Positions 12,623 through 62,911 of a stretch of DNA of 64,000 bases are shown here, piece by piece. Made by a program: the position numbers and the translations under genes. Positions within the stretch are counted from its first letter, which is position 1; every line of letters starts with the position of its first letter. This stretch comes from Defluviitaleaceae bacterium (GTDB lineage: Bacteria > Bacillota > Clostridia > Lachnospirales > WRAX01), in assembly GCA_009779935.1 (NCBI GenBank), contig WRAX01000002.1:1-64000 (forward strand). Reading direction: 5' to 3'. The notes beneath the pieces were generated by a model, which was not told the DNA's origin, searched no databases, and saw only the letters and a program-made list of their open reading frames with translations.

Positions 12623-12651
12623 TTGCTATTGCTTACTTGGTTTGGTATAAT
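12623..12651 (+). promoter_or_regulatory. Promoter-like sequence immediately before structured repeat copy 1
   Basis: TTGCTA (12623-12628) and TATAAT (12646-12651) are 17 bases apart. The expected start point falls at about 12658, the first base of the structured element, so the element would form the 5' end of the transcript that continues into lgt. Confidence 0.6.
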
Positions 12652-12657
12652 TGCCCT

Positions 12658-12809
12658 TATACCCATTTCCCGCTAAAATTGCAACAATAAACTTGTCTTT
12701 TTGTCCGATTGACCCAGCACGTACTTTTGGGTACGCACGGAACCTTGCTCCTTGCAATCGAACAAAAATAATGCGTTTCTTGCAGCGATTTTAGCGGGAA
12801 ATGAGTATA
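12658..12809 (+). repeat. Structured imperfect-palindrome element, copy 1
   Basis: The outer arms 12658-12679 and 12788-12809 pair at 21 of 22 positions (for example TATACCCATTTCCCGC with its near-complement at the right end). Inside, 12698-12711 pairs with 12755-12768 (13 of 14, one C/A mismatch). A hairpin CGTACT-TTTG-GGTACG lies at 12720-12735. A conserved single-strand block follows (ACCTTGCTCCTTG). A second copy at 62746-62911 has the same core and architecture but a different outer arm sequence. It lies in the leader of lgt. The strand is given relative to the promoter and lgt. Family unknown. Confidence 0.85.
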
Positions 12810-12833: not shown

Positions 12834-13718
12834 TTGGCTGATATAATTTTTCCAAATCTGGGCATTACTATCGAAAATTTGCATAGGGTGGCGTTTTCTA
12901 TTGGAAATTTTGATATTTACTGGTATGCCGTTTTTGTAATGGTAGGAATTGCGGCGGGCGTGTTTTTTGGTGCGCATTTTGCACCTAAAAAGACAGGTCA
13001 AAACCCCGAAATTTATTTCGACTTTGCTATCTGGGTAATCCCTGCCGCCATTGTGGGTGGGCGGTTGTTTTATCTTATTTTTAGCCCATGGCCTGCGGGT
13101 GTCGGTTTTTTCCATATTTTCAACATTAGGTCGGGGGGCATTGCCATTTTCGGTGTTATCATCGCAGCCCTTGCCACCGCCATTATCTTCTGCTGGCGTA
13201 AGAAAATTTCTTTTTTTAATTTTGCAGATACTGCCGTGGTAGGTCTTATCATTGGGCATGTTATCGGGCGTTTTGGCAACTTTACCAATCGGGAGGCCTT
13301 TGGCGGCTTTGCTTCCGATAGTGCCCCATTTGCCATGCAAATACGCTTGGACCAAGTGCATAATGCAAGAACCGTAACAGATGAAATGCTGAGCAACCAA
13401 ATAATCCAAGGCGGCTTAACCTATATACAAGTGCATCCAGTGTTTTTTTATGAAGCCGCCATAAACCTGGCTCTATTTATTTTCCTAAACATATACCGCA
13501 AACACAAAAAGTTTGATGGCGAACTTATTGCAATATACTTCCTGTCCTATGGCATAACCCGCTTTTTCTTAGAAACAATGCGTACGGACCAGTTACACAT
13601 CGGCGGCACAAACATAGCCATTGCCCATATTATTTCCGCAATTTTGGTGGGTGTTGGCGGGGCAATCCTTGCCCGTGGATACATTCGCTACTTCAAAAAT
13701 CGTAAAAAGCCTGCATAA
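12834..13718 (+). CDS. lgt: Prolipoprotein diacylglyceryl transferase
   Basis: The product is 294 residues from TTG 12834, which CGGAGG precedes by seven bases. An upstream in-frame ATG at 12801 lies inside the repeat arm and is unlikely to be used. There are about seven transmembrane helices, and the Lgt signature GRFGNFTNREAFGG lies in the middle. The enzyme moves diacylglycerol from phosphatidylglycerol to the lipobox Cys of prelipoproteins at the membrane; the predicted lipoproteins at 22988 and 56852 would be substrates. Its leader contains the structured repeat, so a regulatory link is possible but unproven. Confidence 0.93.
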   Translation: MADIIFPNLGITIENLHRVAFSIGNFDIYWYAVFVMVGIAAGVFFGAHFAPKKTGQNPEIYFDFAIWVIPAAIVGGRLFYLIFSPWPAGVGFFHIFNIRSGGIAIFGVIIAALATAIIFCWRKKISFFNFADTAVVGLIIGHVIGRFGNFTNREAFGGFASDSAPFAMQIRLDQVHNARTVTDEMLSNQIIQGGLTYIQVHPVFFYEAAINLALFIFLNIYRKHKKFDGELIAIYFLSYGITRFFLETMRTDQLHIGGTNIAIAHIISAILVGVGGAILARGYIRYFKNRKKPA

Positions 13719-53988: not shown

Positions 53989-56892
53989 ATGGCCAAAAAA
54001 CGCATACACGAACTGGCAAAGGAGCTTGGGGTGGGCTCATCAGACATAATGAAATTTTTACCCCAATTAAACATAGAAGCAAAAACCCACTTTTTAGGGC
54101 TGGATGCGGATGTGGCGCAGAAGGTAGCAAACCATTTTGGTAAAGCTGTCCCGGTTGCCACAGACGGCGAAAAAAAGGTTAAACAGCAGGCGGAAAAGCC
54201 TGTTGTTTCTGCGCCTGCTGAGAAGAAACCTGCACCCGCCCAGAAAGCGGAGGAAAAACCTGCCGAAAGACCTGCGGCAAGGGCGGCAGAACGCCCTGCG
54301 CCAAGGCAGGACAGGGAACGCCCCGTGCGTTATGATAAAGACGGCAATGTGGTGCCATACCGCCCACGCCCCGTGGATGAGCATGGCAACCCATTGCCAC
54401 GCAAACGCCCTGTGGGGCCGGATGGTAAGCCATTGCCGCCGCCTGTATATTATGATGCACAAGGCAACCCAATACCCCGTAAACCCCGCCCGATAGGAGC
54501 AGACGGTAAGCCAATGCCCCGCCCGCCACGCCCCTTGGGGCCGGATGGTAAGCCTGTGCCGCCCCCTGTACGCTATGATGCACAAGGCAACCCAATACCC
54601 CGCAAACCCCGCCCATTAGGGACGGACGGCAAACCACTACCAAGACCCGACAGACCCCATGGAAGCGGAGACCGCCCACAAAGACCTTACGGCGACCGTC
54701 CGCCACGCCCACAAGGAAGCAGTGATAGACCTCACAGCGACCGCCCACGTGGGCAATTTGGTGACCGCCCGCCACGCCCACAAGGCGATAGACCCCAGTA
54801 CGGCAACCGCCCGCAAGGCGATAGACCACCCCGCCCCGGTGGTGACAGGCCTTCTTTTGGCGGCCGTCCGGGAGGTGGCGGACAAGGCGGCTTCCGTCAA
54901 GGCGGCCATGGCAGCGGCAGAGCGGGTGGTAGCGATATTCCCGCTGTTGGAGGCGGTGGCTTTAACAAAGGCAAACAAGGTGGCGGAAAGACCGCTGAAG
55001 CTCCCGATAAGCAAGGGCGCAAGCAAAGACTTGAAGCTGGTAAAAAAGACCGCAGGCACGACCGTGGCGGCGTTGACAGGGAAAAGGACTTGGATTTCAG
55101 ACCGCAAGTAAAATCCTATGCCAAGCCGGAAGCCCCAAGCATTATTCAAATTCCGCCACAAATCACCCTTAAAGAACTGGCGGAGCTTATGTTAAAACAA
55201 GGCTCGGAAGTGGTTAAGGCACTTTTCAAAAAGGGTGAGATGATAAAGATAACCGATACCATCTCCTTTGAAAAGGCCGAAGAAATTGCCATGGATTACA
55301 ATATCCTTGTTGAAGAAAAAATTGAAATCGATATACTTGAAGAGGTTTTTGCTGAGGAAGAAGAAGCCCATGCTGTTTTAGCGGAGCGGCCCCCGGTTGT
55401 GGTGGTTATGGGCCACGTAGACCATGGTAAAACATCGCTGCTGGATGCCATACGCAAAACTGACGTGGTTGTGGGTGAAGCCGGCGGCATAACCCAGCAT
55501 ATCGGCGCATACCAAGTTAATATTAACGACCGTCAAATAACATTCCTTGATACACCCGGCCACGAAGCCTTTACAGCAATGCGTATGCGTGGTGCCCAGG
55601 TGACGGATATTGCAATACTTGTGGTTGCGGCGGATGACGGGGTTATGCCGCAAACCATCGAGGCCATAAGCCATGCCCGTGCCGCTGGTGTTGAAATTAT
55701 TGTTGCCATCAACAAAATTGATAAACCGGCCGCCAATAAGGATCGTGTAATGCAGGAACTTACCGAGTATGAGCTGGTTGCAGAAGATTATGGCGGCGAA
55801 ACCATTATGGTGCCTGTTTCTGCCCACACCAAAGAGGGGCTTGATACCCTTTTGGAAATGATAATGCTTGTAACCGATATGAAGGAATACAAGGCAAACC
55901 CCGACAAAAACGCCCGTGGCACGGTAATAGAAGCCCAGCTGGACAAAGGCCGGGGGCCTGTTGCCACAGTGCTTGTAAAATCAGGCACTTTGGAAGTTGG
56001 CCAGCCCATTGTGGCGGGCACAGCCCATGGCCGTGTACGTGCCATGGTAAACGATAAAGGGCAAAAGGTTAAAGCGGCAGGCCCATCCATGCCTGTGGAG
56101 ATTTTAGGCTTAACCAGTGTACCTTCTGTTGGTGACTTGTTTTTTGCAGCAAAATCCGAAAAAGAAGCCCGCTATGTGGCGGAGCATATTATCGCCAAAA
56201 ACCGTGTTAAGATGATAGAGGAAACCCCTCAAAAAGTGTCCCTTGATGATTTGTTTAACCAAATCCAAGCAGGAAAGGTTAAAGAGCTTAATGTTATCAT
56301 CAAAGCGGACGTGGGCGGCAGCGTGGAAGCCATGAAGGCGAGCTTAGAGAAGCTTTCCAATGAAGAGGTGCGCATACGCACCATCCTTGGTGGCGTAGGT
56401 GCCGTTACGGAAAGCGATGTAATGCTTGCCTCTGCATCCAATGCTATCATCATCGGTTTTAATGTGCGCCCCGAAAATGCCGCAAAAAGTGTGGCGGAGG
56501 AGCAACAAGTGGACATCCGCTTGTATCGTGTAATTTACAATGCCATTGATGATGTTAAAGCCGCTATGATTGGTATGTTAGACCCGATTTTTGAAGAAAA
56601 AGTTATCGGCCACGCCAATGTACGCCAAATCTTTAAGGCATCGGGCATTGGCACGATTGCCGGCTGCTATGTAACCGATGGTAAAATTACCCGATCTGCG
56701 CAAGTGCGTGTGTTGCGTGATAATATTGTTGTTTACGAAGGCGAGCTTGCAAGCCTTAACCGCTTCAAAGACCAAGTGCGGGAGGTTTTGCATAACTACG
56801 AATGTGGTATTGTGCTTTCCAAGTTTAACGATGTTAAAGAAGGTGACGTAATTGAAGCCTTTGTTATGGAAGAGATTAGGCGTACGGAATAA
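53989..56892 (+). CDS. infB: Translation initiation factor IF-2
   Basis: The product is 967 residues. An IF2N domain ([21 protein letters not shown]) opens it. Residues 70-370 are a low-complexity Pro/Arg/Gly region with repeats of the type [19 protein letters not shown] and then GDRPPRPQG/GGxGG units. A second IF2N domain lies near 388-440. The GTPase has G1 GHVDHGKTS from residue 475, DTPGHEAF and NKIDKP. Domains II to IV complete it. IF-2 places initiator tRNA on the ribosome. The basic linker is longer than usual. The next gene starts inside its 3' end in another frame. Confidence 0.95.
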
Positions 56893-62745: not shown

Positions 62746-62911
62746 TATACTCAAACAACCCCAAAACAGTATCACTAAACTTGTCTTTTTATCCGATTTA
62801 CTGCGTCCCAAGAACCCGCACATACCTCTGGGTATGCACGGGAACCTCGCTCCTTGCAATCGAATAAAAATCCTGCGTTTTCTGATACTGTTTTGGGGTT
62901 GTTTGAGCATA
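62746..62911. repeat. Structured imperfect-palindrome element, copy 2
   Basis: The outer arms 62746-62774 and 62883-62911 pair at 28 of 29 positions (left arm begins TATACTCAAACAACCCC). The inner stem 62786-62798 pairs with 62858-62870 with the same single C/A mismatch as copy 1. The hairpin CATACC-TCTG-GGTATG is at 62821-62836, and the conserved CTCCTTGCAATCGAA block follows. It fills the 370-base gap between a small plus-strand gene and the minus-strand MATE gene; I see no gene in that gap. Confidence 0.85.

Follow-up and report, generated by a model that had tools for sequence, protein, structure and literature searches.

A short multi-copy insertion in the lgt leader and a core of predicted fold that recurs within different ends

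Introduction

Within a 64,000-nucleotide stretch of a Defluviitaleaceae genome (contig WRAX01000002.1, here denoted the window; the genome is denoted G000), a sequence with paired arms lies between a promoter and the start of lgt, and a second copy lies near the other end of the window. A first-pass annotation, made from the letters alone, described the two as a two-copy element with a common core and with arms that differ in sequence yet pair. It inferred selection on structure, and guessed at an ncRNA family, a hairpin-DNA mobile cassette or a regulatory leader. The locus thus raises the question of what this element is, whether it serves lgt, and how its arms can change while their pairing is kept.

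Results

The element between the lgt promoter and the lgt start

Copy 1 occupies 12660..12807 (148 bp) and has its better fold on the minus strand. The interval given initially, 12658-12809, contains the element, the rest being TA target flanks at 12658..12659 on the left and 12808..12809 on the right. Its terminal inverted repeats, denoted type 1 (TACCCATTTCCCGCTAAAATTGCAACAATA), lie at 12660..12689 on the plus strand and at 12778..12807 on the minus strand, and the outer 25 bases of the two sides (12658-12682 and 12785-12809) form 23 of 25 possible pairs. Copy 1 is a decayed member of its family: in the minus-strand core, at 12690..12777, the outer loop has decayed and about 13 bases of the inner stem have been lost relative to copy 2, and the family-model score is 51 bits, versus 98.5 bits for copy 2.

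The promoter that the annotation had placed at the 5' edge of copy 1 is there (TTGCTA-17-TATAAT, 12623..12651, plus strand), adjoining the element from just outside. Downstream of the element, and likewise outside it, is lgt, encoding prolipoprotein diacylglyceryl transferase (12834..13718, plus strand; PF01790, E 1.9e-57), so that a transcript of lgt would carry copy 1. The search for an empty site, suggested in the annotation, succeeded in the lgt leader of a genome of the same genus, G001. There the sequence reads uninterrupted from the -35 box to the lgt start, in the order TTGCTA-17-TATAAT, about 12 bases including ACGACA, a ribosome site and TTGGCTGAT, whereas its counterpart in the window is interrupted by copy 1 with TA on either side. 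The comparison rests on this one genome and on about 60 alignable bases, the sequence farther upstream being different. Judged by this alignment, copy 1 is an insertion. Since G001 has the promoter without the insert, the promoter is lgt's own and older than copy 1. The insert in the lgt leader is most likely a passenger.

Copy 2 and a decayed IS630-type element

Copy 2 (62748..62909, minus strand, 162 bp) has an intact core and is flanked by TA at 62746..62747 and 62910..62911. Neither copy is long enough to hold a transposase gene. The core of copy 2 (62778..62879, minus strand) consists of two internal loops and a hairpin (62821-62836). One loop sets TTGTC (62781-62785) against TCCTGC (62871-62876), the other CGTC (62804-62807) against TCCTTGC (62851-62857). 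The arms of copy 2 pair across 25 contiguous bases. Aligned to each other, the two copies agree at 89% over 88 bases of core and at 52 and 58% in the arms, which bears out the description of a common core within differing yet pairing arms. The compensatory changes reported between the copies are also present: G12703-C12763 and G12721-C12734 of copy 1 are both A-T in copy 2, T12725-G12730 is C-G, and a C/A mismatch of the inner stem is kept in both.

The left terminal inverted repeat of copy 2 is of a second type (62748..62777, plus strand). Starting at 62746, 28 of 29 positions agree with the right end of a decayed IS630-type element found elsewhere in the genome. This remnant (C19:1181-2066; PF13358, E 9.6e-25) has one stop inside. 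Over 29 positions, the two arms of copy 2 share 28 and 27 with the right end of the remnant, and 22 and 21 with the left. This hints that both arms derive from the same transposon end, as though one end had been copied in inverted orientation, although the left end of the remnant may simply have decayed. The annotation had counted a match to a known transposon family against its reading; the ends of copy 2 have such a match, and none was seen for the core. For copy 1, whose arms are of type 1, no cognate element was seen. A family search found IS630-type transposase loci in 5 of 12 element-bearing genomes, and at two of these loci (L281 and L283) the ends, compared by eye, resemble those of the MITE without equalling them.

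Copies in the host genome

In two DNA searches against all of G000, core sequence was found at no fewer than 14 places, so that the element is not limited to two copies. Two places are in the window, two on C8 and one each on C5, C11, C14, C16, C23, C26 (half an element), C38, C42, C53 and C7 (split by other DNA); contig ends cut six of the 14. The arms fall into two main types. Being short, without a complete gene, present in at least 14 places, bounded by terminal inverted repeats and matched by an empty site, the element is a MITE. The contrast with ordinary MITEs drawn in the annotation is only partly right: the ends and target flanks of a MITE are present, while the core is conserved and the ends are exchanged.

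Copies adjoin many different genes. Among 121 places, 72 had distinct flanks and 700 bases to either side of the element; with genes called by an ORF heuristic, the orientations to neighbouring genes were distributed 16/24/17/15, without bias, and none of the 72 insertions lay inside a long ORF.

Two further arrangements were observed in G000. On C7 a composite of 2.4 kb (L032:1020-3454, corresponding to G000:C7:83519-85953) comprises, in order, the left half of a type 1 element, transposase-like remnants (IS3-like by eye), a gene whose product has signalling domains of AraC type and of chemotaxis receptors, and the right half; it is an element that has been split or else one that carries a passenger. 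Separately, positions 54405-54785 of the window hold repeats, namely 114-nt units 84% alike followed by 47-nt units 79% alike.

Ends of several types enclose related cores

Across the genomes examined, the ends include TA-flanked types (TATACTC-like and TATAGTC-like) and types flanked by TTA or TAA (GGAACGTGCAC-like and GGAACTGTC-like). For GGAACGTGCAC-like ends the 3-base flanks are identical in 53 of 61 cases, compared with 25.5 after shuffling; in small sets of other end types they are identical in just 2/3, 2/6 and 2/4. Ends of the TACTCCTTCCC type have CTAG flanks in two of three cases, the third being probably unrelated. TA-type ends have TA flanks in 29 of 31, yet shuffled pairs agree as often, and for this reason the target-site case for the TA type is carried by the empty site.

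Related cores occur within ends of different types. In one genus, g45, cores within TTA-flanked ends (L116 and L102) or TA-type ends (L115) are 86-87% alike, and in a gapped alignment the arms of these three elements are 43-69% alike; L315, from the same genome as L115, has clean TA on both sides. In one termite-gut genome the cores of L074 and L153 are 96% alike and the arms 55 and 76%. By these comparisons the ends are exchanged around a core that stays. From what is established about insertion sequences, a difference in target flanks implies that different transposases are at work. Among the matches listed, none was an autonomous partner of the GGAACGTGCAC ends or of the CTAG ends; a candidate partner stretch, L284, has one open frame of 174 residues, which we do not take for a transposase. 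In the same stretch (G295:C193) two copies stand back to back with one TTA in common, and a third lies about 1 kb away.

Fold and covariation of the core

In an alignment of 54 rows (E up to 1e-12, from 53 chosen loci, one row being a viral contig and none gammaproteobacterial), two-sided changes occur in 47 of 49 modelled pairs and 91.9% of the cells pair; the alignment was fitted to the model and therefore leans to the structure. The covariation score is 0.667, compared with 0.186 when shuffled and 0.09-0.12 with the partner slid. A MAFFT alignment of ten copies, which was not fitted to the model, has two-sided changes in 15 of 45 predicted pairs. The loop bases are kept while the helices vary, the minus strand reading GCAGGA opposite GACAAG in one loop and AAGGA opposite GACGnAG in the other. 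A kink-turn reading of these loops, checked by hand only, was rejected: AGGA opposite GACG on the minus strand (tandem G.A next to a G-C pair) misfits the k-turn plan.

Some variants (L303, L305-L307 and L143) have no outer loop, and it is thus dispensable. By eye, the four from G003 (L303, L305, L306 and L307) have TAGACCTGTCCGG ends, a similar inner loop and hairpin, and a helix replacing the outer loop, while L143:2200-2373 has GGAATGTGCATG ends and is a near-perfect palindrome of about 70 bp per arm, likely a case of arm homogenisation. In L068 and L057 extra DNA appears, also by eye, to be inserted in or near the hairpin apex. An Aquificaceae MAG holds a core-less hairpin of GGAACGTGCATG ends only (L286:94-144) and partial cores that resemble deletion derivatives (L285, L287 and L288).

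The Rfam comparison proposed in the annotation did not bring out an ncRNA family. Rfam 15 gave no match in the window and, in 14 homologue loci, no element at gathering, the sole hit above it being a tRNA beside one of them. Membership of a known RNA family was rejected: weak miRNA rows overlapping a few elements score far below gathering, and the sub-threshold miRNA and sRNA rows are at the level of chance.

Wobble pairs differ between the strands

If the two strands were equivalent, isolated wobbles within helices would appear as G.T and as A.C equally often. On the minus strand the cores have 72 G.T and 10 A.C, and the arms with adjoining host flanks 98 G.T and 41 A.C, in 52 representatives of 91 elements. 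This set was obtained from 138 model matches in 98 chosen loci, which were reduced to one strand per place and distinct cores (93), restricted to cores of at least 85 bases (91) and clustered at 85% core identity. When clustered at 70%, giving 21 representatives, 18 cores are G.T-rich, none is A.C-rich and three are tied. Successive distance bins of the trimmed arm out to 32 bases from the core have G.T/A.C counts of 22/0, 14/3, 21/4 and 14/2 (total 71/9). Beyond the element end, at 33-48 bases, which serves as a built-in control, the counts are 7/10 and 5/10 (total 12/20).

The covariance model itself favours G.T over A.C on its own strand, for which reason loci found by pattern, and arm positions that the model does not cover, were considered separately. 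Because the outer arm lies outside the model, this preference cannot explain the outer-arm bias. Loci found by pattern only have 27 G.T and 6 A.C in the core, with 15 G.T-rich elements versus 2 A.C-rich (p 0.0023); in their arms the counts are 41 and 21, and the difference between elements (12 versus 4) is not significant by sign test (p 0.077), nor is it at 70% clustering (5 versus 2, p 0.45). Folded singly with RNA parameters, 18 of 18 elements are more stable on the minus strand. Counter to the minus-strand bias, a kept wobble in the gammaproteobacterial apical hairpin points, by eye, to the plus strand. Together, covariation and the strand asymmetry of the wobbles support the selection on structure that the annotation had proposed.

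Distribution across genomes

DNA similarity found the element in 8 of 96 genomes, G000 counted. The annotation had called for a covariance-model search for further copies, and this found them. The model was made from seven sequences belonging to three other genera, in the orientation corresponding to the window's minus strand. Within the order it detected the element in 53 of 295 genomes, which represent 33 of 129 genera (at most 11 candidates were scored per genome). In a sample of 398 genomes from the phylum it detected the element in 7; both counts include G000.

An exact two-part pattern of 27 positions matched at least 116 stretches in the genome collection, compared with fewer than 0.01 matches expected by chance (our own arithmetic for random sequence of even composition). 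The 80 listed among these, from which the taxa were read and which give a lower bound on the spread, come from Defluviitaleaceae and other Bacillota MAGs, and from Leucothrix, Cocleimonas (including the isolate C. flava DSM 24830), other Thiotrichaceae, a Methylomonas MAG, a Bathymodiolus methanotroph and an Aquificaceae MAG. The last of these labels is a MAG assignment and may reflect an error of binning. In 11 genomes chosen because the pattern had matched them, the covariance model found the element in all 11 at E up to 1, with best E values from 6.8e-18 to 9.6e-4. According to these matches the core recurs in bacteria of at least two phyla, gammaproteobacteria included.

One contig of the viral collection carries the element (L242). 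With copy 2 as the only query, blastn gave no match at E 0.01 in the plasmid and phage collections. In G295, a Leucothrix MAG, the load is very high: the GGAACGTGCAYG end has 168 forward and 165 reverse matches in 2.9 Mb, allowing up to two mismatches, compared with 1 and 0 for the control. Some copies hold other palindromic repeats nested inside (L160 and L200).

Discussion

The reading that we favour, by a modest degree, is that of a short multi-copy insertion whose core recurs within other ends and of which one folded strand is likely used by the machinery that moves or copies it. Of the three initial guesses, the hairpin-DNA mobile cassette comes closest. Copies 1 and 2 would be mobilised in trans by IS630-type transposases recognising TA-type ends; elements with the remaining types of end would depend on different transposases. 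The unbiased gene orientation of the 72 insertions disfavours a role in host transcripts, and the wobble bias, because it spans the whole arm, disfavours an RNA made from an internal promoter; what is left is that the whole element folds as a single strand, DNA being the simplest case. The minus strand may thus fold, probably as single-stranded DNA, its two ends pairing into one double-stranded transposon end, and selection would keep this folded strand because it helps the element to spread. Spread might proceed through survival as, and re-insertion from, single-stranded DNA, or through fold-back copying, in which the end of a nearby transposon would be made into a new matched pair. Such copying would account for the matching arms as well as for the gain of new ends by a core.

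A bolder form of this reading is distinctly speculative and, in our estimate, rather unlikely. It would make the element a cross-phylum parasite of transposons: a one-strand, structured single-stranded DNA module with neither transposase nor ends of its own, which acquires matched ends from an adjoining DDE transposon by fold-back copying and is spread by unrelated transposase families.

The most serious rival, though one we doubt, takes the element for an ordinary MITE belonging to IS630-type and other transposons, with arms kept paired by the needs of the transposase and by template-switch correction around a functionless core. Ends, flanks and copy number fit this account. The near-perfect long arms of L143 and L168 suggest that homogenisation occurs, and deletion derivatives and a core-less hairpin persist (L285-L288). 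Homogenisation would, however, erase internal loops, yet the loop bases are kept while the helices change; it is blind to strand, yet the wobbles of the core are strongly biased; and related cores are found across phyla and inside different ends. As a full account, palindrome homogenisation alone was rejected. If the folded strand were instead a structured noncoding RNA from the minus strand, acting in trans or stabilising its host transcript, covariation and an excess of G.U would be expected, both being typical of RNA. We consider such an RNA improbable: the wobble bias reaches arm bases 25-32 from the core (14 versus 2), hardly reachable by transcription from an internal promoter, consensus scans around both copies found no minus-strand promoter and no terminator on either strand, gene orientation is unbiased and no Rfam family corresponds. 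That the element acts as a leader regulating lgt, as its position between promoter and start would allow, is barely credible. G001 has the promoter and the lgt start without the insert, the sense strand has the less stable fold, and copies stand beside many different genes. We therefore rejected the leader reading, the promoter being ancestral, and the absence of orientation bias likewise weighs against the annotation's guess of a regulatory leader.

Integron attC sites are comparable: in them one strand folds with conserved unpaired bases between paired boxes and with variable helices; their R boxes are RYYYAAC/GTTRRRY. The element resembles attC in its proposed folded single strand, conserved unpaired bases and variable helices, and differs in having terminal repeats and target flanks. 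Membership was rejected, the bases adjoining AAC/GTT varying and AAC/GTT itself being found in only part of the family and replaced elsewhere, as by TTGCG/CGCAA in L115.

By their ends, the nearest known elements, according to the portions of the literature available to us, are RUP of Streptococcus pneumoniae and Correia/NEMIS, MITEs with 5'-TA-3' termini; IS630-Spn1 has been proposed as the mover of RUP (PMC2229807, PMC3049150). The likeness extends to a size of about 100-160 bp, terminal inverted repeats, TA targets and a long stem-loop, with the ends of RUP being IS630-like (PMC2229807, PMC3049150). Unlike RUP and Correia, which as described are confined to a species or genus and have a single set of ends, the present element has a core found across phyla, several sets of ends, conserved internal loops and strand-biased wobbles. 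The CGTC-tagged REPs of Di Nocera (2013) carry CGTC or TGTC 5' of the stem, occur in several phyla and, in the text accessible to us, have no dedicated transposase known; their stems are of 8-9 bp, mostly with a CCA tail, and they have no dedicated terminal repeats (PMC3733652). Here, in contrast, the CGTC-like bases make up one strand of an internal loop, and the element around them is longer and has terminal repeats. We rejected membership of this class on account of the long helices, terminal repeats, target flanks and TCCT instead of CCA. Thiomargarita nelsonii, a MITE-rich sulfur bacterium, has TATA-ended hairpin MITEs; the likeness is one of description, and the portion available makes no claim of a shared core (PMC4853749). 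A shared structured core with exchanged ends was not described in the open-licence literature searched or in the accessible text of a 2024 review (PMC10969869), which is weak evidence of absence.

The covariance model and the loop motifs offer a direct route for annotating this element family. A MITE is usually taken for an eroded insertion sequence and identified by the ends borrowed from a single parent. In this family it is the core that stays stable, whereas the ends vary, across kinds of target flank and across phyla. Two questions are thereby made testable: whether short palindromic elements are kept for their folded single strand, and how non-autonomous elements switch from one transposase host to another.
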